A stretch of DNA of 20,877 bases, taken from IMG/VR virus record IMGVR_UViG_3300036804_000287, positions 1 to 20,877 of that record, one strand, 5' to 3'. Below, in pieces: positions 3 to 20,233 of this stretch (position 1 is its first letter; every line of letters begins with the position of its first letter). The position numbers and the translations under genes are program-made. Source of the DNA: a virus. The notes below the pieces were generated by a model, which searched no databases, was not told the origin of the DNA, and was given only the letters and a program-made list of their open reading frames with translations.

Positions 3-1961
3 CCCGGATCGGTTCTGACAGCCACCAGCTGCGCGGACTTCTCATCGAAGCTCGCTGCCGCCATCGGAGGCGAGACCATCGTTCTGCCCGCGGTGAACCT
101 CGGATGCGGTCCGATCACACTGCCGGTGGCTCCTGGAGTGAGCGACAGCCAATGGGTCACGATCAAGACAGATCAGACCGGAGCCCCCGGATATCCCGCT
201 TACGGAGTCAGGGCGACACCATGCCAGATCGGCATCGGCATGATCACCGGCTATCCGCTTTTTCCCTGCACCTCGGCGACGCGGCTGATGCCGCAGATCA
301 CCTGCAATACGACCAATTGCCAGGCGATCACGGCCGCTTCGGGCGCAAGCTTCTACCGTCTCGAGGGTCTCGAAGTGATCGGACCATCGAGCACGAATTC
401 GAACAACTACCTGGTCGGTCTCAACAATTCGAACGATCACATCGTGCTCTCGCACATGGCCATCCACGGCCAGCCGAATCCCATGTTCCTGACGACTCTC
501 GAGGACAAGGGAGGGATCTCCACCAGCGGATCGACCAACCTCGCGATCGTCGATTCCTGGGTGTGGGATTTCATGTGCGTGCACGGCGGCGCCTGTACCG
601 ACTCGCAGGCGATCGCTGGAGGCCTTGGCTCGGCCGGCGGCGGTCCCATCAAAGCGGTGAACGATTTTCTCTCGGCTTCGGGTGAGACCTGGCTCTTCGG
701 CGGCGGCACAGCGACGGCGACTCCCTGCGATCTCGAGTTCCGACGCAACCACAGCTTCAAACCGATATCGCTCTGGTTCCTGGGATCGGGAGCGACCGCC
801 TTCCCGATCATTAAGAACCTGGGCGAAGTGAAGAACGCCTGCCGCGTTCTTTACGAGGCCGACATTTTCGAAGGCGATTGGGCCGGCTACCAGGGCGACC
901 AGTTCGGCACCGCAATTCTTGCGACACCTAAAAATCAGTCGGTCTTCACCTCGGGTGTGGTGAACACCGCGAGCCCGAACGCCCTGACGGCGACAATGGG
1001 ATCCTTCCCTTCCACAACGACTCGAGTCGAACTGCCGGCTGGGTTCTTCACCGTGACCTCGTGGATCGATAGCACCCATGTGCACGTGACACCGGATCCC
1101 GGAAACAACACCGGCCTCACCGCCTCACACATTTGCGTGCCTGGCGCCGATCCGACCGCGGTGGTCGCGAATCTCACCATCCGCTACAGCATGATCATGC
1201 ACGTCGCCAACGGAATGGGGATTTCGACGGCGCTTTCGGACTGCCAGGATCAGTCCATGGGGATTCACTTTGTCTCGGTGCACGACGTCGTGCTCGATGA
1301 CGTCAATGGCGTGACTTATACGAATGCGACCTCGCCCTGCTGCGGAAACGGGTTTGCGTTCAAGGTCGCGAACGATCACCCGAGCAGCTCAGCGTGGCCC
1401 AACGATATTGAGATCAACCATGTCACGGCGCTGACGAAGGGATGGGCAAACGGAAAGGGGCAGGGTCTCTTCTACCAGTGCGACAGCCTGGTCGGAAGCT
1501 CTGGGACGCTTCCGCTCACCTACTTCAAGAACATCACCATCATCAACAGCATTGGCTCGGATCCGGCGATCGGTTTCCTGCGCGGCGGATGCGGCCAGTC
1601 GTTGCCAGGCGCCGGCATGGCCGGAACTCTGGCCGGCAACGAATGCTCCGATAACAACGGCGGGTTGAGCGGCGGAACTTGCACCTGGACGTTCGCCAAG
1701 AATCTGCTTCCCACGGGAGTCTTCACCAGCCAGAGCACCGGATCCCCTTATCCCTCGACCAATTCCATTTGCGGCACCGTGACGATGCCGACCTGCTTCC
1801 CCTCGAGCGGCTTCACGTTCGTCTTCGCCAATTACAACAACGGCAATGGCGGCGACTATCACCTGGCCACCGGGAGCCCTTACAAGAACCAGGGCACCGA
1901 CGGTCTCGATCTCGGAGCGCAGATCGATCTCATGAACGGGTTTCTCGCGAACGTGAACTAA
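3..1961 (+). CDS. Beta-helix (pectate-lyase-like fold) protein, tailspike-like, 5' truncated by window edge
   Basis: The reading frame is open from position 3 with no stop, so the gene begins upstream of the window. A start at the GTG at 93 would cut off in-frame residues (CADFSSKLAAAIGGETIVLP) that look like the usual opening turn of a right-handed beta-helix protein. The roughly 650 visible residues are rich in Asn, Gly, Ser and Thr, with regularly spaced short beta-like segments such as LEGLEVIGPSS and HIVLSHMAIHG. They end in YHLATGSPYKNQGTDGLDLG, a common C-terminal finish of parallel beta-helix repeat proteins. The stop lies 2 nt before the tail-terminator gene. I infer a virion-associated glycan-binding or glycan-cleaving spike; no catalytic residues can be assigned. 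A host-derived beta-helix protein is the alternative. Confidence 0.65.
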   Translation, partial: PGSVLTATSCADFSSKLAAAIGGETIVLPAVNLGCGPITLPVAPGVSDSQWVTIKTDQTGAPGYPAYGVRATPCQIGIGMITGYPLFPCTSATRLMPQITCNTTNCQAITAASGASFYRLEGLEVIGPSSTNSNNYLVGLNNSNDHIVLSHMAIHGQPNPMFLTTLEDKGGISTSGSTNLAIVDSWVWDFMCVHGGACTDSQAIAGGLGSAGGGPIKAVNDFLSASGETWLFGGGTATATPCDLEFRRNHSFKPISLWFLGSGATAFPIIKNLGEVKNACRVLYEADIFEGDWAGYQGDQFGTAILATPKNQSVFTSGVVNTASPNALTATMGSFPSTTTRVELPAGFFTVTSWIDSTHVHVTPDPGNNTGLTASHICVPGADPTAVVANLTIRYSMIMHVANGMGISTALSDCQDQSMGIHFVSVHDVVLDDVNGVTYTNATSPCCGNGFAFKVANDHPSSSAWPNDIEINHVTALTKGWANGKGQGLFYQCDSLVGSSGTLPLTYFKNITIINSIGSDPAIGFLRGGCGQSLPGAGMAGTLAGNECSDNNGGLSGGTCTWTFAKNLLPTGVFTSQSTGSPYPSTNSICGTVTMPTCFPSSGFTFVFANYNNGNGGDYHLATGSPYKNQGTDGLDLGAQIDLMNGFLANVN

Positions 1962-1963
1962 CA

Positions 1964-2620
1964 GTGATTCTCAACGGTCTATACCAGGTGCTCTCCCAAT
2001 CGGGCGCAACCTCGAGCCTGATTGCCGCTTGTCCTGGCGGGAAGCCTGGCACGGCAATTTACTTCACGCTCGCAGCGAAAGGCAGTGCGCGTCCCTTTGT
2101 CGTGATCAGCATCATCGATGCGCCGCCGGCCGAGCAGTCGATGGATGGATCGAGCGCGCTGATCGAGTCGCGGATCCAGTTTGACAGCTATGCCGACGAC
2201 CAGCTCACCGCGAGGGCGCTCTCGAAAGCCATCCGGCTGCTGCTCGAGGATTTCGATGCGACGCTGCCCGACGGAACCACGGCCGCCTTCACAGGCGTGA
2301 ACATCGACACCGATGGCCCGTATGAGGTCGGCGGCGCCGGGTATCTGTTTCGCAACATTCTCGACCTCTCGGCCTTCTACCAGGAGCAGGTGAACACCGT
2401 GCAAAGCTATCCACCCCGTCTCTACTCGCTGATCGGAACGCAGGACGGAACCAACGTGAACTTCACACTGCCGACGGCCGTCGTCGATGCCACCACGCTG
2501 ATGCTCTATTTGAACGGCCAGATGCTGATCGCGCCCGATCAGTATTCGCTGAGCGGTGGAATCAATATCACATTCGTCCAGGCGCCGGCTTCGGGCGACG
2601 TCGTGAGGGCATGGTTCTAA
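1964..2620 (+). CDS. Tail terminator/completion protein (DUF3168, lambda gpU-like) with C-terminal extension
   Basis: The GTG at 1964, 2 nt after the previous stop, is chosen because the upstream in-frame stretch overlaps the beta-helix gene and is Arg/His-rich shadow sequence. The protein is 218 aa. Residues 1 to about 145 carry the DUF3168 pattern: a short helix (ILNGLYQVLSQSG), a strand, a PFVVISII segment, then RIQFDSYADDQLTARALSKA and a further helix. This family caps the tail tube at the head-proximal end. DUF3168 proteins are usually 110-150 aa. Here residues about 150-218 add a beta domain (NVNFTLPTAVVDATTLMLYL, then a final GDVVRAWF) of a type seen in phage fibre and adhesin proteins. 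The stop overlaps the next start as TAATG. Confidence 0.7.
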   Translation: MILNGLYQVLSQSGATSSLIAACPGGKPGTAIYFTLAAKGSARPFVVISIIDAPPAEQSMDGSSALIESRIQFDSYADDQLTARALSKAIRLLLEDFDATLPDGTTAAFTGVNIDTDGPYEVGGAGYLFRNILDLSAFYQEQVNTVQSYPPRLYSLIGTQDGTNVNFTLPTAVVDATTLMLYLNGQMLIAPDQYSLSGGINITFVQAPASGDVVRAWF

Positions 2621-3048
2621 TGCTGAAAAAAACACTTCTCATTCTTGCGCTCTCGGCCGCGGCCGCGGCGCAGAACCAGATCGACTTTTCGAAGCAGATC
2701 AAGAACTTCAGCGGTTATGTCTCGATCCCCTTCGAATCGCCGGCGCTCACCGACTCGGGCGTGAACCAGTTCGAGTTCCCTCACAAGATGTCGTTCGTGC
2801 GCATCTATTGCAGCACCGACCAGGGAACGCTTTCGATCAACTTCGAAATTCGCAGCGAGGCGTCGCCGGATTCGCCAGGCACGCCGATTCTCGCTTCGGC
2901 TCTGGTCTGCAATTCCACCGGAGTCAGCACGACGACGTTTGCCGTTGCCGCGGTCAGCGCCGACACGCCGGTGGCGCTGGTGATCTCTGCCGTTAGCGGC
3001 GCGCCCAACAAGGCCCGAGCTTTTCTGAAATCTCAAATCAGTCAATGA
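2620..3048 (+). CDS. Small protein with Sec signal peptide, unknown function, inside the tail operon
   Basis: The start is the ATG at 2620, overlapping the previous stop (TAATG). An ATG at 2611 would only add three residues. The N-terminus MLKKTLLILALSAAAAAQNQ is a textbook Sec signal peptide (basic n-region, hydrophobic core, small residues before a likely cut near Ala/Gln 17-18). The remaining roughly 125 residues are beta-rich and have two cysteines (IYCSTDQ and LVCNSTG) that could form a disulfide after export. No family is recognised. It is the first of three consecutive exported proteins set between the tail terminator and tail tube genes. It could be a surface decoration or lysogen envelope protein. 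The stop TGA overlaps an ATG at 3045. Confidence 0.65.
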   Translation: MLKKTLLILALSAAAAAQNQIDFSKQIKNFSGYVSIPFESPALTDSGVNQFEFPHKMSFVRIYCSTDQGTLSINFEIRSEASPDSPGTPILASALVCNSTGVSTTTFAVAAVSADTPVALVISAVSGAPNKARAFLKSQISQ

Positions 3049-3059
3049 GGGAACGTCCC

Positions 3060-3731
3060 ATGAAACGAGTTCTGCTCCTCGCGATCGGCGTGCTGCTTTC
3101 GGCCTCGATCGCCTTTGCGCAGACCGAGGTGATCCCATCCGACAACGGCGTCGGCGCCGAGGTCGGGCGCCATACGATCGTTCACAAGCGAAATCTGCCC
3201 CTCTGGATCGCAACCTTCGGGCGCAAGGGACGCGAGAAGATTCAGCCGGCGCCAGGCTGGCGCGCGCCACATTTCGTTCACCCGGTGCACGTCGTCGCAC
3301 GGCACTCCGATGGCGCCATCTTTTCCGATCAGTGGACGCATAACCTGAGAACGACCGGTGGCGCCGACTGGCAGGCCTCGGCGATGGCGAACACATCCGC
3401 GCAGCCGGCCAGCTGCAACTATGTCGCCGTCACCAATGACGCCACGGCTCCGGCCGCCGGCGATTGCGCCGCCGGATCCTCGGCCTGCACCCTGACGTCA
3501 GAGATCTCGACCAACGGCCTGGCGCGCGCCCAGGGCACCTATGCCCACAGCAACGGCACCGCCAGCTATACGGTCGCCAAGACCTTCAGCGCGAGTGGCA
3601 CCCAGGCCAGCCAGAAGAGCGGGCTCTTCAATGCCTCATCCTCGGGCACCATGTGCTTTGAAGCGACTTACAGCGCCGTGACCGTGAACAGTGGCGACAC
3701 TCTCACCATCACCTGGACAGTGACTTACTAA
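3060..3731 (+). CDS. Exported phage fibre-like protein with C-terminal virion beta domain
   Basis: I choose the ATG at 3060, preceded by a GAGGGA ribosome-binding site at 3047-3052, over the overlapping ATG at 3045. This start begins a clean signal peptide (MKRVLLLAIGVLLSASIAFA) with cleavage before QT. The protein is 223 aa. Residues 21-95 are basic and unrecognised. Residues about 100-223 match a domain I know from many phage tail and fibre proteins: NYVAVTNDATAPAAGD, then LTSEISTNGLARAQGTYAHS, TASYTVAKTFSASGTQ, KSGLFNASSSGTMCFEATYS, and a final GDTLTITWTVTY. It has four cysteines. A signal peptide on such a domain is unusual, because virion proteins normally assemble in the cytoplasm. Confidence 0.7.
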   Translation: MKRVLLLAIGVLLSASIAFAQTEVIPSDNGVGAEVGRHTIVHKRNLPLWIATFGRKGREKIQPAPGWRAPHFVHPVHVVARHSDGAIFSDQWTHNLRTTGGADWQASAMANTSAQPASCNYVAVTNDATAPAAGDCAAGSSACTLTSEISTNGLARAQGTYAHSNGTASYTVAKTFSASGTQASQKSGLFNASSSGTMCFEATYSAVTVNSGDTLTITWTVTY

Positions 3732-3732
3732 C

Positions 3733-4833
3733 TTGCCGAGATCGTTACAACTCGTAGCCGTCGTCGCTCTGCTGTGCTGTTCATGCTGGGGCAGCATCGC
3801 CGCGTCTCACGTCGGGTCCCAGACCGCGACCTCGGGCACGCTCGTATCGACAGTAACCATCAATGCCGGCGACACCGTCGTCGTTGGCGTCTTAATGAGC
3901 TCAGCCGCTGCCCGCACCGCAAGCGCGGCGGACTCCAGCGGCGTTAACACCTACACATCGCAAGTTGCTACCAGCAACGGATCGAACGTGCAGGTGGCGA
4001 TTCTGACGGCCGCCAATGTCACGAATTCAGCGACGTCGGTGACTGTAACCATCAGCGGAACCTATAACCGGGCGGACGTCGTCGTTTCGACCTACACAGG
4101 CGTCGGAAGCAACGGAGTCGGAACCAACAATGTTCAGCAGGGTTCGAGCACTACACCGACGATTGCGCTGACCACGCAGGACGCGAATAACTTCGTTGTC
4201 GCCTGCTTCGCTCAGGCTTTTTCCGGGGCGATCACCTTCTCGGCGAATGTTGGGAACCTTCGCGTGCAGCAGGCCGGCGGCACGACGAACGCCGCTGGAA
4301 TTAACGACAATACCGCGGTCTCGGCCGGAAGCGTCACGAACACCGCGACCAGCAATCGCAATGGCAATTGGGCAGCCGTGGCCGTCGAGCTTCGCTCGAC
4401 CGGAGGCGGAGCCAGCCAAAGCCGATCGGTTTCGGAAACTCTCACCGAGGCCGACAGCGCGGCGATTGGGTTTGCGCCTGGCGGCCCATCTCTATCGCTG
4501 GCTACCTCAGCCGCGGTCACCCTGAATTTTGGAACGGGATCCACGCTCGCTCTCACAACTTCGCCGGCGGTCAAGATGGGTCTCGGAACCGCTCCCAGCC
4601 TCGCTCTCACGACGAGCTCGTCGGTCTCGCGTATTGCTGCCTTCAGCCGGCCGCTGGCGCTCACGCTGACTGAATTCGATTCAGCCGCGGAGCTGCTCAC
4701 CGCCTCCCGCGCAGTGAGCGCGAGCCTTTCGACTGCCGACGGCGTTTCGGCGACAAAGGCCAGCGGAGCCGGTCACAAAAATGGGTTCATCATCATCACC
4801 CGTGTTCAAGGTGAGAGTCGCCGCGGCTTATGA
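3733..4833 (+). CDS. Exported Ser/Thr-rich repeat protein, putative adhesin or fibre
   Basis: The start is a TTG at 3733, 2 nt after the previous stop, giving a signal peptide rich in Leu, Val and Cys (LQLVAVVALLCCSCWGSIAA). No ribosome-binding site is visible, so coupling to the upstream gene is likely. The protein is 366 aa. Residues 25-220 look like a beta-sandwich (INAGDTVVVGVLMSS, then DSSGVNTYTSQVA, VTISGTYNRADVVVSTYTGV). Residues about 229-342 hold five or six degenerate repeats of about 18-20 aa (LSLATSAAVTLNFGTGS, then LALTTSPAVKMGLGTAP, LALTTSSSVSRIAAF). A short C-terminal tail follows (GFIIITRVQGESRRGL). The stop overlaps the tail-tube start (ATGA). The function is unknown; the repeats suggest an extended stalk or adhesin. 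Confidence 0.65.
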   Translation: MPRSLQLVAVVALLCCSCWGSIAASHVGSQTATSGTLVSTVTINAGDTVVVGVLMSSAAARTASAADSSGVNTYTSQVATSNGSNVQVAILTAANVTNSATSVTVTISGTYNRADVVVSTYTGVGSNGVGTNNVQQGSSTTPTIALTTQDANNFVVACFAQAFSGAITFSANVGNLRVQQAGGTTNAAGINDNTAVSAGSVTNTATSNRNGNWAAVAVELRSTGGGASQSRSVSETLTEADSAAIGFAPGGPSLSLATSAAVTLNFGTGSTLALTTSPAVKMGLGTAPSLALTTSSSVSRIAAFSRPLALTLTEFDSAAELLTASRAVSASLSTADGVSATKASGAGHKNGFIIITRVQGESRRGL

Positions 4834-5300
4834 ATTCGACCGCATACCCGGGATACGGATGCAAGCTGAAGATGTCCGTCGACGGCGGCACCACGTTCAC
4901 GCCGATCGCGCAGCTGAAGAGTTTCGAACCCTCGGGCTCGAAGCAGCAGCATGTTGATCAGACGAACCTGTCGACGCCTGCAAATTTTACCCAGCCGCTC
5001 GCGGTGAAGGTCACCAGCGGCGAGCTCTCCCTCGAGGGCGTGCTGATACCGACCGATTCGAGCCAGCTCAGCCTGGGATCCGTGCACACGGACATGACCG
5101 TCGGGACTTTTCTCGCCGTGCTCTCTGACGGAAGCCAGTGGATGTTTCAGGCCCTGGTCAGCGAATACGTGCCTTTCAAGGTCAAAGTGAAAAGCGCGCT
5201 CACATTTTCCGCGAAGCTCACCGTGCTGGCTGGCTATTTCGTGATGTCCGGAGCCTTCGACCAGGCGGCCTTCGATCAGAACGCTTTCCAGGTCGGGTAG
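4830..5300 (+). CDS. Major tail tube protein, copy 1 (lambda gpV-like)
   Basis: This 156-aa protein has the size and pattern of siphovirus tail tube proteins. It opens with PGYGCKLKMSVDGGTTFTPI and a QLKSFEPSG strand. A central GELSLEGV motif at residues 64-71 follows, then alternating beta strands ending in KVKVKSALTFSAKL. Tube proteins polymerise as hexameric rings around the tape measure. It ends in AFDQAAFDQNAFQVG, a Phe-repeating tail that I have seen in phage proteins but cannot assign. The start overlaps the previous stop by ATGA and lacks a strong ribosome-binding site. The next gene is a paralogue, with a 23-nt identical stretch at the same codon positions. Confidence 0.75.
   Translation: MNSTAYPGYGCKLKMSVDGGTTFTPIAQLKSFEPSGSKQQHVDQTNLSTPANFTQPLAVKVTSGELSLEGVLIPTDSSQLSLGSVHTDMTVGTFLAVLSDGSQWMFQALVSEYVPFKVKVKSALTFSAKLTVLAGYFVMSGAFDQAAFDQNAFQVG
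5019..5041 (+). repeat. 23-nt exact repeat, copy 1 (partner 5517-5539)
   Basis: A 23-nt identical stretch encodes GELSLEGV in both tail-tube genes. It starts exactly 189 nt after each start codon, so it marks homologous codon positions of a tandem gene duplication. It contains GAGCTC and CTCGAG in a row. Confidence 0.8.
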
Positions 5301-5327
5301 CAAAGACCACTTCTAAGGAGAACCTCA

Positions 5328-5756
5328 ATGACAACCACCGCATCGCCGGGATACGGATCGCACCTCGGCTACAGCAACACCAGCTTCGCCAGCACCACGA
5401 ACATCGGGCAGCTCAAGATGTTCGACGGCGCCGGCGGCAAGGGCAACTTCGACGACATCTTCAACATGGACTCGCCCGATATCAACGAGGAAGTGCTGAA
5501 GACCACGATCAAGCCGGGCGAGCTCTCCCTCGAGGGCGTCTACAACGGCGGCGATCCGACGGGGTTCACCAATCTGCTCACCCAGCTTTATCTCTCCGGC
5601 CAGGCCGCTCAGGGCTACTGGAAGATCACGCTGAGCGACACCCACACCATCCAGTTCCGCGCTTATGTGTCGGATCTGTCTCTCAAGGTCGATGCCAAGA
5701 AGGCGATCACTTTCAGCGCGAAGCTGATGATCACCGGCGGCATCGCGTTCGCCTAA
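5328..5756 (+). CDS. Major tail tube protein, copy 2
   Basis: This 142-aa protein is preceded by a strong AAGGAG ribosome-binding site at 5315-5320, 7 nt before the ATG. It shares with the upstream copy PGYG near the N-terminus, IGQLKMF, GELSLEGV at residue 64, and the C-terminal KKAITFSAKLMITGG pattern. The middle differs (FDDIFNMDSPDINEEV). It lacks the Phe-repeating C-terminal tail of copy 1. The much better ribosome-binding site suggests that this copy is the abundant tube subunit and copy 1 a minor or specialised form; that is inference. A very strong hairpin follows about 30 nt after the stop. Confidence 0.75.
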   Translation: MTTTASPGYGSHLGYSNTSFASTTNIGQLKMFDGAGGKGNFDDIFNMDSPDINEEVLKTTIKPGELSLEGVYNGGDPTGFTNLLTQLYLSGQAAQGYWKITLSDTHTIQFRAYVSDLSLKVDAKKAITFSAKLMITGGIAFA

Positions 5757-5891: not shown

Positions 5892-6515
5892 GTGAACGAT
5901 CTGTTGCTCAGGGAACTTGCGCCGCCGGCGAAAGTCTCGCTTGGTGGCAAGGAGTACTCGCTCAGTTTTCCTATGCAGGCCGTGATCCTGTACAAGCAGG
6001 AAACCGCGAAGATCGATCGCCAGCGGTCGGCGGATCGCCCCAAGCTCGGCCGCGAACAACTGCAGGAGCTCCGCAAGCGGCGCCAGCAGGCAATTCGCGA
6101 GGCCCAGCCGTTCGCTCCAAAAAAGGGCGACGAGTGGCTGACGGAATCGCGCGAGCAGTTCGAAGCTCTGATGGAAGAGGCGACCGCGCTCAAGATCCAG
6201 ATCGACGAAGCCGCCGGCACGGGCGACAGCCTTTTCGATCTGAACAACTGGAGAAAGATCGGCCTCGATATCGATCCCGAGCGCTTGCTTCTGGCTTTGT
6301 GGGTCGGGCTTCATCGTTCCGAGGACAAGGTCTTCCAGGCATCGCTAAGCCTCGAGGAGCTCGCTCCTCTGGTAAATGCCAGAAATGCGATCGCAATCAC
6401 CACCGCGATCTCCGAGGCACTGACCTCCTCGCTGATCGCGAAGGATGATGAACCAAAAAACGGCCACGCGCCGGAGACGAGTCCGGCGCCGACGAGCGAG
6501 ACTACGAGTGCGTAA
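5892..6515 (+). CDS. Tail assembly chaperone, short form (lambda gpG-like)
   Basis: I choose the GTG at 5892, 11 nt after AAAGGGA, which begins VNDLLLRELAPPAKVSLGGK. An ATG at 5784 in the same frame would add 36 residues derived from the hairpin region and is rejected. The protein is 207 aa. The pattern is that of siphovirus tail chaperones: an N-terminal strand pair (KVSLGGKEYSLSFPMQAVIL), a charged helical middle (roughly residues 30-110), and a WRKIGLDIDPERLLLALWVG helix. A low-complexity Pro/Thr-rich end (APETSPAPTSETTSA) follows, the part replaced when ribosomes shift frame. Chaperones of this type coat the tape measure before tube polymerisation. It is 207 aa against 140 in lambda. Confidence 0.7.
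   Translation: MNDLLLRELAPPAKVSLGGKEYSLSFPMQAVILYKQETAKIDRQRSADRPKLGREQLQELRKRRQQAIREAQPFAPKKGDEWLTESREQFEALMEEATALKIQIDEAAGTGDSLFDLNNWRKIGLDIDPERLLLALWVGLHRSEDKVFQASLSLEELAPLVNARNAIAITTAISEALTSSLIAKDDEPKNGHAPETSPAPTSETTSA
6455..6489 (+). promoter_or_regulatory. Programmed -1 frameshift signal: A AAA AAC plus downstream hairpin
   Basis: The heptamer A_AAA_AAC (6455-6461) lies in the correct phase of the gpG-like frame (codons CCA AAA AAC). A 6-nt spacer follows. Then comes a perfect 8-bp stem, GCGCCGGA (6468-6475) with TCCGGCGC (6482-6489), and a six-base loop. A stop in the -1 frame at 6449-6451 lies 3 nt before the heptamer, so the shift window is narrow and contains this site. All parts of a classical -1 frameshift signal are visible; function is inferred. 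Confidence 0.85.
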
Positions 6516-6865
6516 TCCGCGATCTCTGGGTGGCGGCCACGCGGGAGGGAATCGGCGAAGCAGAGTTTCTCGCCATGCCGCCTGTCGCCCTCGATGCCCT
6601 GGTCCGATCGGCGGCGATCGAAGCTTTGCGGCCGGCCGCCATGATCTGCGCGGCCATCATGAACACCCACAACGATTACGAGAAACGGCCGCAGGGCTGG
6701 AGTCCTGCAGACTTCCTGCCGGGCGCCGAGCCCGCGCGCGACGAGAGCATGGACGAGTTCGTCGAAAAGGTGCAGCGCGGCGAGAAGTTCGAGCCACCAC
6801 CACCCGAGGTGATGGACGCTTTTCGCGATCGCATGGCCTCGATGTTCGGAAAGGCGCAAGGCTGA
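6461..6865 (+). CDS. T domain of the tail assembly chaperone, made by -1 frameshift (lambda gpGT-like)
   Basis: This is the -1 frame relative to the gpG-like gene. It is open from just after a TGA at 6449-6451 to 6865 and has no good start codon before its conserved-looking first part (DYECVIRDLWVAATREGIGE). The next possible starts, a GTG at 6530 and an ATG at 6575, have no convincing ribosome-binding site. The frame carries the T-domain signature AAMICAAIMNTHNDYEKRPQ then SPADFLPG. Shifting at the slippery site 6455-6461 gives a fusion of about 324 aa, 190 from the upstream frame and 134 from this one. By analogy with lambda GT, the fusion links tape measure and tube subunits. Confidence 0.75.
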   Translation, partial: RPRAGDESGADERDYECVIRDLWVAATREGIGEAEFLAMPPVALDALVRSAAIEALRPAAMICAAIMNTHNDYEKRPQGWSPADFLPGAEPARDESMDEFVEKVQRGEKFEPPPPEVMDAFRDRMASMFGKAQG

Positions 6866-6869
6866 TCCC

Positions 6870-7088
6870 ATGAAAGATGTGACCGGCTTTCCCCTCGAGA
6901 AAGGTGACCTGGTCGCGCTGATGGCGAAGATCGTCGACATCGATCCCGAATGCGTGACCATCCGAATTCTCAACTCTGAGATGGAGCTGCGCGTGTCCTG
7001 CGACGAGGTCATGGGCGTCGCCTCGAGTGAACTGCAGAAGATACAGATGCCCGAGCCCGACGCTCCACCGGAGGCGAAGAGTGCCTGA
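6870..7088 (+). CDS. Small phage protein, unknown function
   Basis: This 72-aa protein starts 4 nt after the chaperone stop, with an AAGG-type ribosome-binding site around 6858. It begins MKDVTGFPLEKGDLVALMAK and continues with alternating hydrophobic strands (VDIDPECVTIRILNSEMELR) that suggest a small SH3-like or OB-like beta barrel. The C-terminus is Pro/Glu-rich. I do not recognise a family. Its place between chaperone and HK97 gp10-like genes implies a role in tail assembly. Its last bases overlap the next gene and carry that gene's GGAGG ribosome-binding site (7070-7074). Confidence 0.6.
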   Translation: MKDVTGFPLEKGDLVALMAKIVDIDPECVTIRILNSEMELRVSCDEVMGVASSELQKIQMPEPDAPPEAKSA

Positions 7089-7572
7089 GCTCGTCACCGT
7101 GGAGATCAAAGGCCTGCAGCAGCTCGGCCGCGCCCTGAACTCAATTCCTGCCGTGCTCGCGACGCGCATCATGCGCGAGGCTTTGCACGCTGCCGGCGAC
7201 GTCATGGCGGCCGCGGCCGAAGCGACTGCTCCGGTTCGCACCGGCGCGCTGCGCGAGGACGTTATCGTCAAGGTTCACGTGAGCGGAGATCTGCGGAGCA
7301 ACTATGTGCTCGTTGGGCCCGGCTACGATCGCGGCGACCTCAAAGTGCGTGGCGTTCGCAGAAACCGCCGCGGGCAGCTCGAAGCCGTCGTCGACACCAC
7401 TGAGTCCCCGGGCGTTTATGGAAAGTTTCTCGAGTTCGGCACCAAGAACATGTCGGCGCGGCCCTGGCTGCGGCCGGCCTTCGAAGCCTCGAAGCAGGAA
7501 GCAGTCGAAGTGTTCACTGAATTTGTGCGCGCAGGCCTCGCCGGCGTCGCCGCCGCGGTGAGAGGAGCATAG
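7081..7572 (+). CDS. HK97 gp10-like protein (head-tail connection/tail completion family)
   Basis: The GTG at 7081 has GGAGG 6 nt upstream and gives VPELVTVEIKGLQQLGRALN. The ATG at 7027 would add an Arg-rich shadow of the preceding gene. The 163-aa protein shows the family pattern in order: a G-L-x-x-L helix, a long helix (ILATRIMREALHAAGDVMAA-like region), then APVRTGALREDV. A beta region and YGKFLEFGTKNMSARPWLRP come near the C-terminus. These last two motifs are the hallmarks of the HK97-gp10 family. In most siphoviruses this gene lies before the tail terminator; here it sits just before the tape measure. Confidence 0.8.
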   Translation: MPELVTVEIKGLQQLGRALNSIPAVLATRIMREALHAAGDVMAAAAEATAPVRTGALREDVIVKVHVSGDLRSNYVLVGPGYDRGDLKVRGVRRNRRGQLEAVVDTTESPGVYGKFLEFGTKNMSARPWLRPAFEASKQEAVEVFTEFVRAGLAGVAAAVRGA

Positions 7573-14981: not shown

Positions 14982-15407
14982 GTGAAAAAGTTCTGGCATC
15001 GCATCGAAGCTGCTTTTAAGAAGCTCTTCGGCTCGAGCAACTGGGAGAAAACCGCGAGCGCGGTGATCACCTACGCTGCGCCGATCATCGAAACCATCGT
15101 CTCGCTCGCTGCCGGCGGCCCGGCTGAAGTGCTTGTTGCCCGTGTAGTGTCTACCATTCAAGGCGATCTAGCGACGATGTCGGCCGTCGTCGACGGAGCG
15201 ACCGGCACGCCGCCGGCAAACGAGCTGCAGGTCTTCGTAAATGCCGCGAACAGTATCAAGTCGAACCTGACTTCGATTCTCGCCTCGGCAGAAGTGAAGA
15301 ACTCAGCAAAACAGGCAGCGATCACAGCCGCGGTCGATACGATCGTGGGCGAGCTCGATGCCTGCGTCGCCAACATGCCCGCGATCGCAGCGGCGCCGGC
15401 GAAATAA
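14982..15407 (+). CDS. Ala-rich helical phage protein, unknown (lysis region)
   Basis: The GTG at 14982 is preceded by GGAGGG at 14971-14976. The 141-aa product starts basic and aromatic (MKKFWHRIEAAFKKLFGSSN), then has a moderately hydrophobic segment (ITYAAPIIETIVSLAAGGPA) and a long Ala/Ser/Val-rich helical region. That region includes ASAEVKNSAKQAAITAAVDT and ends ACVANMPAIAAAPAK. I do not recognise a family. The amphipathic N-terminus and its place behind endolysin and holin candidate suggest a membrane-related lysis accessory, but an unrelated late function is equally possible. Confidence 0.6.
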   Translation: MKKFWHRIEAAFKKLFGSSNWEKTASAVITYAAPIIETIVSLAAGGPAEVLVARVVSTIQGDLATMSAVVDGATGTPPANELQVFVNAANSIKSNLTSILASAEVKNSAKQAAITAAVDTIVGELDACVANMPAIAAAPAK

Positions 15408-15411
15408 GAAC

Positions 15412-15723
15412 GTGGGATTCATCTCTCTCCCAGATCCGGTCTCGATGTTCGAGTCGGCGAAAAATGCCGGGCTCGAACGCGAGATCGCGGACTCTTTCGT
15501 CAGCGCGGCCTGCAGCGCATGGATTGCCTTTGTGTGGCGATCGGGTGCGGCTAAGTGGGCGACGTTCACCGGCGAGGGCCAGGCGATGAAGGATGCAGCG
15601 ACGGCGGCCTATCTCTCACTGCGCGAAATCGAGAAGAAGAACTTCCTCACGCTCACCGTGCCGAAGGACCTTCTCGAACCCGAAAATCTAGCCCGTTTTC
15701 AAACCGAGCGCGGGACAAAGTAA
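15412..15723 (+). CDS. Hypothetical phage protein with one hydrophobic segment
   Basis: The GTG at 15412, 4 nt after the preceding stop, gives 103 aa; the earlier ATG at 15358 is a shadow extension of the previous gene. The sequence begins VGFISLPDPVSMFESAKNAG, then ADSFVSAACSAWIAFVWRSG, a possible single membrane-associated helix. The second half is charged (LSLREIEKKNFLTLTVPKDL). No ribosome-binding site is seen, so it may be read by coupling. I recognise no family. Its position groups it with the lysis-end genes. Confidence 0.5.
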   Translation: MGFISLPDPVSMFESAKNAGLEREIADSFVSAACSAWIAFVWRSGAAKWATFTGEGQAMKDAATAAYLSLREIEKKNFLTLTVPKDLLEPENLARFQTERGTK

Positions 15724-16522: not shown

Positions 16523-16538
16523 AATTGATCCCGCTATG
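16523..16538 (+). repeat. 16-nt direct repeat, copy 1 (partner 20237-20252)
   Basis: AATTGATCCCGCTATG covers the start codon of the first recombinase. A copy differing at one base lies just after the second recombinase at 20237-20252. The pair brackets the integration block. It could be a relic attachment core or a shared promoter-type motif; a match of this length is not rare by chance in 20 kb. Confidence 0.3.
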
Positions 16539-17354
16539 GAAATCAGCAATGAGCAGTTGATCGAGGTTTTCGCCGAGGCGCAGAAGGTCCTCAAGCAGCG
16601 TGAAGCCGGCGGGAAAAAGAAAAAGCACTCGCCCACCAAGAAGGCGCCGGTCTCTCTCTCGGACGACGAACTGCTCAAGGTGCTGGCTCTCGGCCAGGCG
16701 AAGCGACTGCGCGACTGGGTTCTGATGCTGCTGACCTACCGGCACGGGCTCAGGGCAAGCGAGGCGCTCAATATCCGCCGCCGCGATCTCGATGGCGCCT
16801 ACCTGCGGATCCGCCGCGGCAAGGGATCGGAGGAAACCGAGCAGCCGCTGCTCGGGCATGAGAATCCGCTACTCAACGAGATCGCGGCCGTGGCGATCTG
16901 GCTGGGAGAGATGGGAACCCGGGGGAAGAAGGGCGGGGCAAAAGTGGGCGGCCGCCGGAGCCGTGCCAAAATTTTACATTCTCATCAGAATGTAAAATTT
17001 CGTACCGTTGGAGATCCCGACGAGCGGCTTTTCCCGCTCACTCGCCAGCGGTACTACCAGCTCTTTCATGACTACGCGACCGAGGCCGGCCTGCCCGGTC
17101 GCAAGCGAAGCCCTCACAAGCTGAAGCACTCGACCGCGACACACCTGCTTCGTTCGGGCGTCCCGGTGAACGAGGTGCAGGACTGGTGTGGCTGGAAGTC
17201 GCTTGCCACCATGAATCGCTACACGCGACCGCATGCCGATGAGGTCGCTCACTCCGTGGACCGCGCGATCCGCGGCAAGGATTCCTTTCGGCAGATCCGG
17301 CAAGGGGTTCTGTTTGGCGATCCAGCGAGCGGATCTGCTAAGGTTCGCCCATGA
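16536..17354 (+). CDS. Tyrosine recombinase / integrase 1 (compact, variant active site)
   Basis: The 272-aa protein has a short N-terminal part (about 50 aa, basic) and a full catalytic domain. Visible catalytic positions: Arg73 in HGLRASEAL; His194 and Lys197 in SPHKLKHSTATHLL, where Lys stands in place of the usual Arg of HxxR. Trp220 in DWCGWKSLATMNRYTRP replaces the usual His (as in Cre), and Tyr229 is the nucleophile. Residues about 125-165 form a Gly/Arg/Lys-rich insertion before DERLFPLTRQ, and a perfect 14-bp palindrome lies in it. The length is short for a phage integrase (usually 320-400), so the core-binding domain is reduced. Integration, excision or a regulatory inversion role are all possible. 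Confidence 0.75.
   Translation: MEISNEQLIEVFAEAQKVLKQREAGGKKKKHSPTKKAPVSLSDDELLKVLALGQAKRLRDWVLMLLTYRHGLRASEALNIRRRDLDGAYLRIRRGKGSEETEQPLLGHENPLLNEIAAVAIWLGEMGTRGKKGGAKVGGRRSRAKILHSHQNVKFRTVGDPDERLFPLTRQRYYQLFHDYATEAGLPGRKRSPHKLKHSTATHLLRSGVPVNEVQDWCGWKSLATMNRYTRPHADEVAHSVDRAIRGKDSFRQIRQGVLFGDPASGSAKVRP
16969..17000 (+). repeat. Perfect 14-bp inverted repeat inside integrase 1
   Basis: AAATTTTACATTCT (16969-16982) and AGAATGTAAAATTT (16987-17000) are exact reverse complements separated by CATC. The stretch is strikingly AT-rich within a GC-rich gene. It keeps the reading frame open, encoding roughly residues 145-155 (KILHSHQNVKF). A chance occurrence of this quality in 20 kb is very unlikely. 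It may be a palindromic insertion, a protein-binding site or an mRNA hairpin. Confidence 0.9.
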
Positions 17355-19111: not shown

Positions 19112-20233
19112 ATGAACGAAGCGGATCCCGGGAGCACACTCGCCGAACTCGGCACCGTCTCTTCCTCCCCAGGTGCCCTCAGGGAAAATCGGAAAACTGA
19201 ATTGCATACGCCAGGGCATCTGGAATGCCCGGCGTGCGAGCTTTCGCGATTACGCATGATCAACCCGGGGACACTGGCAGATCTCACATTCAGGGAAGCG
19301 GCGCCGATCTGGTATCAGGCACACGCGCAACACATCGGGACAGGAACCCGGCGCAACTATCTCTGCAACATTCGCTCTCTTCAACCGTTCTTCGCAGCTC
19401 TTCCGCTGCGCGCGATCCACATCGGACACTTCGAGCAGTACCAGCAGATGCGCTCACGCGGCGAGGGAGGTCTCACCGCGGTCGGGCCTTCGCGCGTGAA
19501 TCACGAGCTCAACACGGTCTCGCAGATCCTCGACCGCGCCGGGCTCTGGGCGCCGATGGCGCCGCACTATCGGCCGATGAGGATGCCAAAGCCGAAGGTC
19601 GGCTGCGCGCTCACAGCGGAAGACGAAGAACGACTCTTCCGCGCAGCGGCCAGCAATTCGCGATGGAAGATCGCCTACTGCGCCGCGCTGATCATGAACA
19701 ACACCGCGGCCGGGCCGAATGAGATCCGGCACCTTCGTCTGCGCGATGTCGAGATCGATCCCCCTACCATCCATATCGTCGAAGGGGTGAAGAACGACTA
19801 TCGGGTTAGGGATCTGCCGCTGAACGAGCCCGCGGCCTGGGCGATGAAGCAGCTGCTCGCGATCGCGAAGACGAAGGGAGTGGTGCTGCCCGAGCACTAC
19901 CTGATGCCGCACCGCGCGCCCGATGGCCTGCAGGGCTTCGATCCTTCGCGGCCGATCTCGACTTTCCGCGGCGCCTGGGAGAAATTACGCGAAGCTGCCG
20001 GCCTCCCGCACCTGCGCATGTACGACCTCAGGCACAACGCCATCACCAAACTGCTCGAAGATGGCGACGTGCCCGAACGGGTGGTGATTGATCTCGCCGG
20101 CCACGTCTCGCGGGCGATGCTGCAGCGCTACTCGCACATCCGCATGCGCGCCAAAAGAGAGGCTGTGGATTCCTTGGGGAAAAAGGGCCCGGAGGCGCTT
20201 AAAAGGCCGACGCTGATGCTGCTGAAAAAGTGA
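19112..20233 (+). CDS. Tyrosine recombinase / integrase 2 (variant without Arg I)
   Basis: The ATG at 19112 has AAGGA at 19098-19102. The 373-aa protein has an N-terminal part with a CPAC motif (Cys39, Cys42). A SAM-like core-binding domain (about 58-150, TFREAAPIWYQAHAQHIGTG) and a catalytic domain (about 165-350) follow. Catalytic positions: the Arg I place (E-3 of GPNEIRHLRLRD) is Gly201; the beta Lys is Lys227 in VKNDYRVRDLPL. In MYDLRHNAITKLL the first His is Tyr304 while Arg307 is kept. His331 in LAGHVS and the nucleophile Tyr340 in RYSHI are present. The frame is intact, with no sign of decay. I recall similar recombinases from Acidobacteria-like genomes, so the changes may define a subfamily. 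A tRNA gene follows 26 bp later. Confidence 0.8.
   Translation: MNEADPGSTLAELGTVSSSPGALRENRKTELHTPGHLECPACELSRLRMINPGTLADLTFREAAPIWYQAHAQHIGTGTRRNYLCNIRSLQPFFAALPLRAIHIGHFEQYQQMRSRGEGGLTAVGPSRVNHELNTVSQILDRAGLWAPMAPHYRPMRMPKPKVGCALTAEDEERLFRAAASNSRWKIAYCAALIMNNTAAGPNEIRHLRLRDVEIDPPTIHIVEGVKNDYRVRDLPLNEPAAWAMKQLLAIAKTKGVVLPEHYLMPHRAPDGLQGFDPSRPISTFRGAWEKLREAAGLPHLRMYDLRHNAITKLLEDGDVPERVVIDLAGHVSRAMLQRYSHIRMRAKREAVDSLGKKGPEALKRPTLMLLKK

Follow-up and report, generated by a model that had tools for sequence, protein, structure and literature searches.

According to textbook accounts, tailed phages are assembled in the cytoplasm, where disulfide bonds do not form. Phage proteins that leave the cytoplasm are known from other settings: the coat proteins pIII and pVIII of filamentous phages are virion proteins with leaders for Sec or YidC, and Lom and Bor of phage lambda are exported morons, the former encoded in the tail region. 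For Spackle (gp61.3) of phage T4, a protein with two cysteines that acts in the periplasm and binds the lysozyme domain of a virion protein, cleavage of the Sec leader has been proven (PMC7650644). Here we analyze the IMG/VR record IMGVR_UViG_3300036804_000287, a 20,877-base virus fragment (hereafter the window), in which three adjacent genes, denoted C, D and E, encode proteins with predicted signal peptides and lie between the genes for the tail terminator and the tail tube. As judged from the sequences, dozens of related, mostly uncultivated viruses carry virion-type proteins with predicted export signals in the tail-building operon. We tentatively propose, with confidence just short of even, that in this lineage of tailed phages the appendages for host binding (an adaptor, fibres and a small connector-region protein) are built outside the cytoplasm, with export by Sec and formation of disulfides, and are attached to the finished particle at or after lysis. 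No description of exported or signal-peptide-bearing virion proteins or fibre modules in tailed phages was found in the literature searched, which lay outside subscription journals and preprints.

Predicted signal peptides of C, D and E

The first-pass annotation of the window stated that each of the three genes begins with a signal peptide, and heuristic scoring combined with shuffling bears this out, with strong leaders in C and D. Shuffles of the first 45 residues match the observed leader score in 0.06% of the trials for C, 0.06% for D and 3.1% for E; the leaders of C and D are clearly far beyond chance, and that of E is modest, exceeding chance marginally. Likewise, the characteristic parts of a Sec type I leader (positive n-region, hydrophobic core and A-x-A type cut site) are clear in C and D and marginal in E. 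The start codon of E is a TTG without a Shine-Dalgarno site, located one base past the stop of D, so that translational coupling is likely. The case for the E leader is strengthened by the homologue in record G008, which has an ATG start and a strong leader (MKTRFQQRIALLLLAVALCLCGQSAFA, cut before S), and by the fibres encoded 3' of D in other records, which have GTG or TTG starts followed by leaders such as MRRLALIFAAFCAVLLSSGA and MWRLSFIFALLLAALPA.

Taken together with the comparisons below, the signals make export of the module proteins by Sec highly probable, and we infer that the proteins are translocated and the predicted leaders cleaved. The use of a heuristic predictor and the TTG start of E without a Shine-Dalgarno site speak for a different explanation, namely that the hydrophobic N-termini are not export signals but wrong starts, chance occurrences or uncleaved anchors of cytoplasmic virion proteins. 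Given the shuffling results, the conservation of A-x-A-type cut sites and Shine-Dalgarno sites across families, the linkage of leaders to cysteine pairs in two unrelated families (see below) and the scarcity of leaders in matched control loci, we consider this explanation highly improbable. In these control loci, which come from other phages with leaderless D homologues, 7 of the 178 genes have leaders, and the possibility that the leaders are a by-product of base composition was ruled out on this basis.

Leaders are linked to cysteine pairs in two unrelated families

Single-protein scans of viral_contigs with C, D, E and the second tail-tube-like protein found no relatives. Relatives were reached only by aligning the gpJ proteins of the window and of one relative, with 31 viral contigs retrieved, and then by family alignments; scans of genome_contigs with gpJ matched no cellular genome, but these were exact-pattern scans by which absence is not shown.

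The strongest evidence that the leaders work, as far as sequences can indicate, is the linkage between leaders and cysteines. A family of about 145 aa, encoded between the head-tail adaptor and head-closure genes, was found at 65 loci, and 50 distinct, complete sequences were compared. Both conserved cysteines of the mature domain are present in 34 of the 37 leader-bearing members and in none of the 13 leaderless ones; in the latter, the N-terminus coincides with that of the mature domain (MAQTALTP...), and most of the starts have a good Shine-Dalgarno site. Among the leaderless forms is the protein of G002, the virus whose gpJ is closest to that of the window; this protein also lacks the cysteine pair. 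The D family, for which the family alignment yielded 44 loci, has the same split: in the alignment, a cysteine loop is found in all 8 distinct leader-bearing sequences (the window included) and in none of the 28 without a leader. The exported D forms have a C-x6-C loop (GDC[AV]AGS[ST]xC), whereas the 28 others have a shorter, cysteine-free loop at the same place. Within what was searched, leader-bearing D forms are restricted to the lineage of the window; the apparent leader of D in L170 depends on a GTG internal to the gene and was set aside as a false positive. The presence of the cysteine pair in exported but not in leaderless forms is what disulfide formation outside the cytoplasm would lead one to expect, and such disulfides may accordingly be predicted for the exported forms.

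The first-pass annotation had held that homologues without hydrophobic N-termini would speak against export. Such homologues do exist, at least 28 leaderless D homologues being found in other phages (Chlorobiaceae phage CV-1-33 has one), so that the anticipated observation was literally made; export is nonetheless not refuted. The split in the D family supports export instead, because the leaderless forms are devoid of the cysteine pair, whereas all D homologues of the lineage keep both leader and pair.

Leader-bearing genes are concentrated between the capsid and tail-tube genes

In 15 regions upstream of the terminator from 14 records, capsid, connector and head-closure genes are interleaved with leader-bearing genes, most of which, in the relatives, lie in the stretch from the connector genes to the terminator. 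Counting genes of at least 80 aa outside the recognised core virion genes in related virus contigs, leaders were found in 45 of 72 genes between the major capsid and the tail tube, in 5 of 138 to the right of the tail tube and in none of 12 to the left of the capsid; for the contrast between the first two regions the Fisher p is 2.5e-21, a value that overstates the case because the gene caller is crude and the related records are not independent, although the contrast itself is large. The scorer was positive for 8 of 162 core genes, all judged doubtful, which bounds the false-positive rate near 5%. The leader-bearing starts have strong Shine-Dalgarno sites, and the median cysteine content is 1.68 per 100 aa in the mature exported proteins vs 0.96 in the core virion proteins.

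Two exported families recur in these regions, the 145-aa family and the LCLVP family; in the latter, the leader and the first ~150 residues are conserved (47% identity) and the remainder is variable, with a fibre-like pattern. The exported set can reach past the tube genes, a leader-bearing gene for a 177-aa protein being located between the second tube-like gene and the next gene in L138 (7498-8031). A second type of leader, ~30-65 aa long, ends in FGTT followed by A or TA, begins at an ATG with a strong Shine-Dalgarno site and is common to the second tail-tube-like protein and an unrelated protein of ~184 aa encoded near the capsid gene (L003:2761, L012:653, L021:1057, L033:969, and L036 and L037 on the minus strand; L054:4048, L098:1239, and L059 and L066 on the minus strand). 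The tube protein of the window (5328) has no leader of this type and starts where the leader would end (MTTTASPGYG).

Given that the proteins are exported, that the gene content is variable and that the window contains integrase genes, the three genes might be morons, that is, lysogenic-conversion genes that entered the tail operon by insertion and whose expression from the prophage would alter the host envelope, as with lambda Lom and Bor. The organization of the locus makes this origin very unlikely. A scan of positions 1900-5400 for sigma-70-type consensus sites only yielded no promoter-like site, and terminator-like sites are no more common than in shuffled sequences; the promoter and terminator of its own that a moron should have were thus not detected, and there is no intergenic room. 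Stop-start overlaps and 1-nt gaps bind the genes to the flanking tail genes, and dozens of records also have leaders on families of virion type that occupy conserved positions.

D has a virion-adaptor fold and travels with a fibre gene

The first-pass annotation had pointed to a domain known from phage fibres in one of the proteins and to stalk-like repeats in another. Both descriptions are upheld: D matches phrog_5417 and has a tail-adaptor fold, and E matches the minor tail protein family phrog_553 and has repeats that resemble those of much longer exported fibres (Table 1). In the AlphaFold2 model of mature D, the residues from 51 on have a pLDDT of about 65-97 (in ten-residue blocks) and the first 50 residues are below 50. 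The best matches of the model are without exception tail, baseplate, fibre-adaptor or connector chains of phages or archaeal viruses. The first is the tail of HFTV1 (Foldseek 3.7e-5; Z 9.9, rmsd 2.5 over 118, residues 53-203 of the mature model), followed by the phi812 arm (Z 8.5), A511 gp105 (8.3), the GP4 fibre-tail adaptor (7.4), the Bas63 connector (7.1), the T4 baseplate (7.1) and the Sf14 neck (6.9); the first unrelated chain scores 5.2. The sequence profile of D matches the HFTV1 baseplate hub gp44 (3e-5), the same chain as that found by Foldseek, which anchors the tail fibres of that virus. Although a shared fold is not proof of function, the model places D among virion attachment domains with a tail or baseplate fibre-adaptor fold. 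For the 145-aa family, a good model (pLDDT 94) was obtained, yet it had no significant fold match in the PDB, and a phmmer-type search of the PDB was likewise without a match.

A leader-bearing fibre-like gene is located directly 3' of D in the window, L134-L137, L140 and L141; in L138 and L139, one gene lies between D and the leader-bearing gene, and L142 is cut off. The pair occupies three places in the structural operon: between the capsid and adaptor genes (L134-L137, L141), between the 145-aa gene and head closure (L140), and between the terminator and the tube (window, L138 and L139). The D-fibre cassette therefore moves within the operon as a unit. The 1063-aa exported fibre that follows D in L140 (4459-7650) has a C-terminal domain of the 145-aa family (E 1e-13), which links the two exported families.

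The E homologue of L064 matches phrog_553 at 2e-8, and in G008 and L064 the homologue has a leader and lies directly 5' of the terminator; comparison of E with an ORF of E-like appearance in L178 gave no match. No relative of C was detected in viral_contigs or phages, and sequence profile comparison with the other exported families gave no match; a weak match to L178 (28% identity, E 0.008 in a small set), which phmmer did not recover, was not counted as homology. As far as these comparisons reach, C is without a convincing homologue and appears specific to the window. A survey suggested in the first-pass annotation, asking whether the trio stays together between terminator and tube genes in relatives, accordingly has a divided outcome: D and E stay paired and their position recurs in L138 and L139, but C has no counterpart and the cassette is found at three sites. 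A stable three-gene unit is ruled out, given that C is window-specific and D-E occurs at differing places, and the trio that had been taken as self-contained is part of a larger exported module, whose usual place in relatives is the interval from the connector genes to the terminator.

A role at the cell surface is the alternative that deserves most attention. Under this scenario, the proteins leave the cytoplasm without becoming part of the virion; displayed on the infected cell or released from it, they would serve as polysaccharide-binding or -degrading factors, adhesins or agents of superinfection exclusion, with domains borrowed from phage fibres. Sec leaders and cysteine pairs would be expected in such proteins, some module proteins have beta-helix and weak glycosidase-like matches, D of L141 resembles a lipoprotein, and exported phage factors such as T4 Spackle, which is secreted and cut (PMC7650644), are on record. 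However, D has a virion-adaptor fold and is always accompanied by a stalked fibre, and the genes, interspersed with those for head, connector and tail, have no promoter-like site to themselves. Furthermore, downstream of gpJ the window shows no additional gene recognised as fibre-like; if all these proteins were non-virion, the window would be left without any recognised fibre. We regard the cell-surface scenario as possible but rather doubtful.

Gene organization of the window

Apart from C, D and E, the plus strand of the window encodes, in this order, A and B (the terminator) ahead of the three genes, and two tail-tube-like proteins, a tape measure protein, gpJ, a glucosaminidase-domain protein and two tyrosine integrases after them (Table 1). 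Based on this gene content, from terminator to integrases, the phage is siphovirus-like and probably temperate. The integrase genes lie at the right end (16536-17354 and 19112-20233); L003 terminates with a close relative of the second one and also contains a resolvase-like ORF (15085-15684). The position of the trio between tail terminator and tail tube, as originally described, agrees with the matches of B to Tail_completion_gp17 and phrog_347 and of both genes 3' of E to phrog_158 (major-tail-protein-like). Its coordinates and its coupling by overlaps or gaps of 1-11 nt are confirmed as well: the stop of B ends at 2620, the first base of the ATG of C (another in-frame ATG is at 2611); C and D are separated by 11 nt, whereas an alternative D start at 3045 would overlap C by 4; D and E are separated by 1 nt; and E overlaps the tube gene by 4 nt (ATGA at 4830).

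Table 1. Coordinates of the genes and sequence features in the window
Feature	Position	Strand	Remarks
A, large fibre-like ORF	3..1961	+	5' end outside the window, frame open from the window edge; 652 aa, 20 Cys
B, tail terminator with extra C-terminal fibre-like domain	1964..2620	+	Pfam Tail_completion_gp17 3e-6; phrog_347 2e-4
C, predicted exported protein	2620..3048	+	125 aa mature, 2 Cys; alternative start 2611
Predicted signal peptide of C	2620..2670	+	MLKKTLLILALSAAAAA, cut before QNQ; heuristic and shuffles
D, predicted exported tail fibre-adaptor-like protein	3060..3731	+	core residues ~71-223; phrog_5417 6e-6 (profile 31-155/156)
Predicted signal peptide of D	3060..3119	+	MKRVLLLAIGVLLSASIAFA, cut before QTE; Shine-Dalgarno-like GAGGGA upstream
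Cysteine loop of D	3465..3488	+	C-A-A-G-S-S-A-C; only in exported family members
E, predicted exported minor-tail-like protein with repeat stalk	3733..4833	+	TTG start coupled to D; phrog_553 1e-3
Predicted signal peptide of E	3733..3801	+	MPRSLQLVAVVALLCCSCWGSIA, cut before ASH; weakest of the three
Stalk repeats of E, residues 230-338	4420..4746	+	match repeats of exported 1122- and 1125-aa fibres after D in L059 and L066
First tail-tube-like gene	4830..5300	+	phrog_158 4e-11
Second tail-tube-like gene	5328..5756	+	phrog_158 2e-10; leaderless in the window, hydrophobic leader in several relatives

Searches of Pfam and PHROG with A gave no match. In relatives, its place is occupied by cysteine-rich exported beta-helix proteins (for example, L138 389-3010, with a leader and a Pfam Beta_helix match of 6e-7), and A is probably a further exported appendage protein whose own N-terminus lies beyond the window edge. 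Residues 1-141 of B are all that most relatives possess; the C-terminal domain (residues ~159-218, window 2438-2617) has weak tail-fibre matches. G013 encodes full-length B, including the fibre-like domain, plus a second copy of that domain just downstream, and a domain of the same type terminates the fibre ORF of L178. In head-tail adaptor genes, such as that of L059 (reverse complement, 6394-7296), a short insert matches gpJ residues ~329-394, so that the same small domain is present in two virion proteins.

A possible route of appendage assembly

The scenario that we favor, by a little over an even chance, is that the proteins are virion appendages that pass through Sec, undergo oxidation once outside the cytoplasm and become attached to the particles at or after lysis. 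C, D and E would be translated with the late structural genes and sent through the host Sec pathway; signal peptidase would cut them, and they would fold outside the cytoplasm, where the cysteine pairs could form disulfides. D would act as a fibre-adaptor-like protein and E as a stalked fibre made with it, with C and A as additional components of the appendages. Upon rupture of the cell by holin and endolysin, the filled particles would meet and bind the stored appendages, and lysis is the step at which such an encounter is considered most likely. Attachment might occur around the junction of neck and tail, a guess that is based on the fibre-like C-terminal domain of the terminator and the likeness of D to neck and connector chains. 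Given export, incorporation in the virion appears somewhat more probable than its opposite, in view of the fold and domain identities, the place among structural genes without a promoter-like site and the lack of another recognised fibre gene downstream of gpJ. Among the options raised by the first-pass annotation, this evidence favors virion fibres loaded from the periplasm during lysis; an extracellular adhesin, envelope display and superinfection exclusion are possible, with no specific evidence for any of them.

Several observations weigh against this scenario. The leader scorer is a heuristic of our own (n-region charge, hydrophobic core, small residues at -3 and -1) and not SignalP. Although about five changes of the leader are seen on the 145-aa family tree, its well-supported branches yield a single independent contrast, so that the Fisher values overstate the evidence; the same linkage of leaders and cysteines in two unrelated families is a better argument than the tree contrasts. 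Mature E has a single cysteine, and the D homologue of L141 (3869-4459) has a lipoprotein-like leader (LVLCA|C) and would stay in the membrane. From the leaderless homologues it follows that export was adopted by this lineage, but arrival of the product in the virion does not follow; after export, the proteins could remain attached to the cell or be lost by diffusion. Finally, we know of no precedent among tailed phages for late loading of fibres from outside the cytoplasm.

Comparison with known systems

The module proteins belong to virion families already described and represent a new, exported form of them. This suggests that some fibres of tailed phages can acquire their fold, disulfide bonds included, after leaving the cytoplasm. 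Should particles indeed be loaded there, this would be a new assembly route, with one portion of the tailed virion produced in a separate compartment, and to our knowledge such a route has not been described for tailed phages; it could yield tougher fibres or a means to equip particles after their release. If the proteins are not virion parts, they still represent a class of exported proteins, encoded by phages and widespread in apparent soil viruses, that has gone undescribed and was likely missed because annotation pipelines call its members hypothetical. Homologous pairs with and without the leader and cysteine loop permit a direct comparison of export, oxidation and binding.

Among the described systems, T4 Spackle resembles C, D and E in being a phage protein with a Sec leader but is a single small inhibitor without a fibre or virion-type fold and is not encoded in a structural operon. 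Lom and Bor, similarly, are exported phage proteins, but they are outer-membrane or lipoprotein factors with cell-surface roles, encoded by single genes and without homology to virion domains. Filamentous phages differ in that their virions are extruded through the membrane, whereas the phage of the window is tailed, as indicated by its terminator, tube, tape measure and glucosaminidase genes. At the level of families, E matches the minor tail protein family phrog_553, and D matches phrog_5417, a family of unknown function; no export signal is present in those leaderless D relatives that were tested. Finally, the core of D has the same fold as the tail-adaptor and baseplate domains of HFTV1 gp44 (9h4p), A511 gp105 (6hhk) and the GP4 adaptor (8jou), but D is a small separate protein with a predicted Sec leader and a cysteine loop that leaderless D homologues lack.

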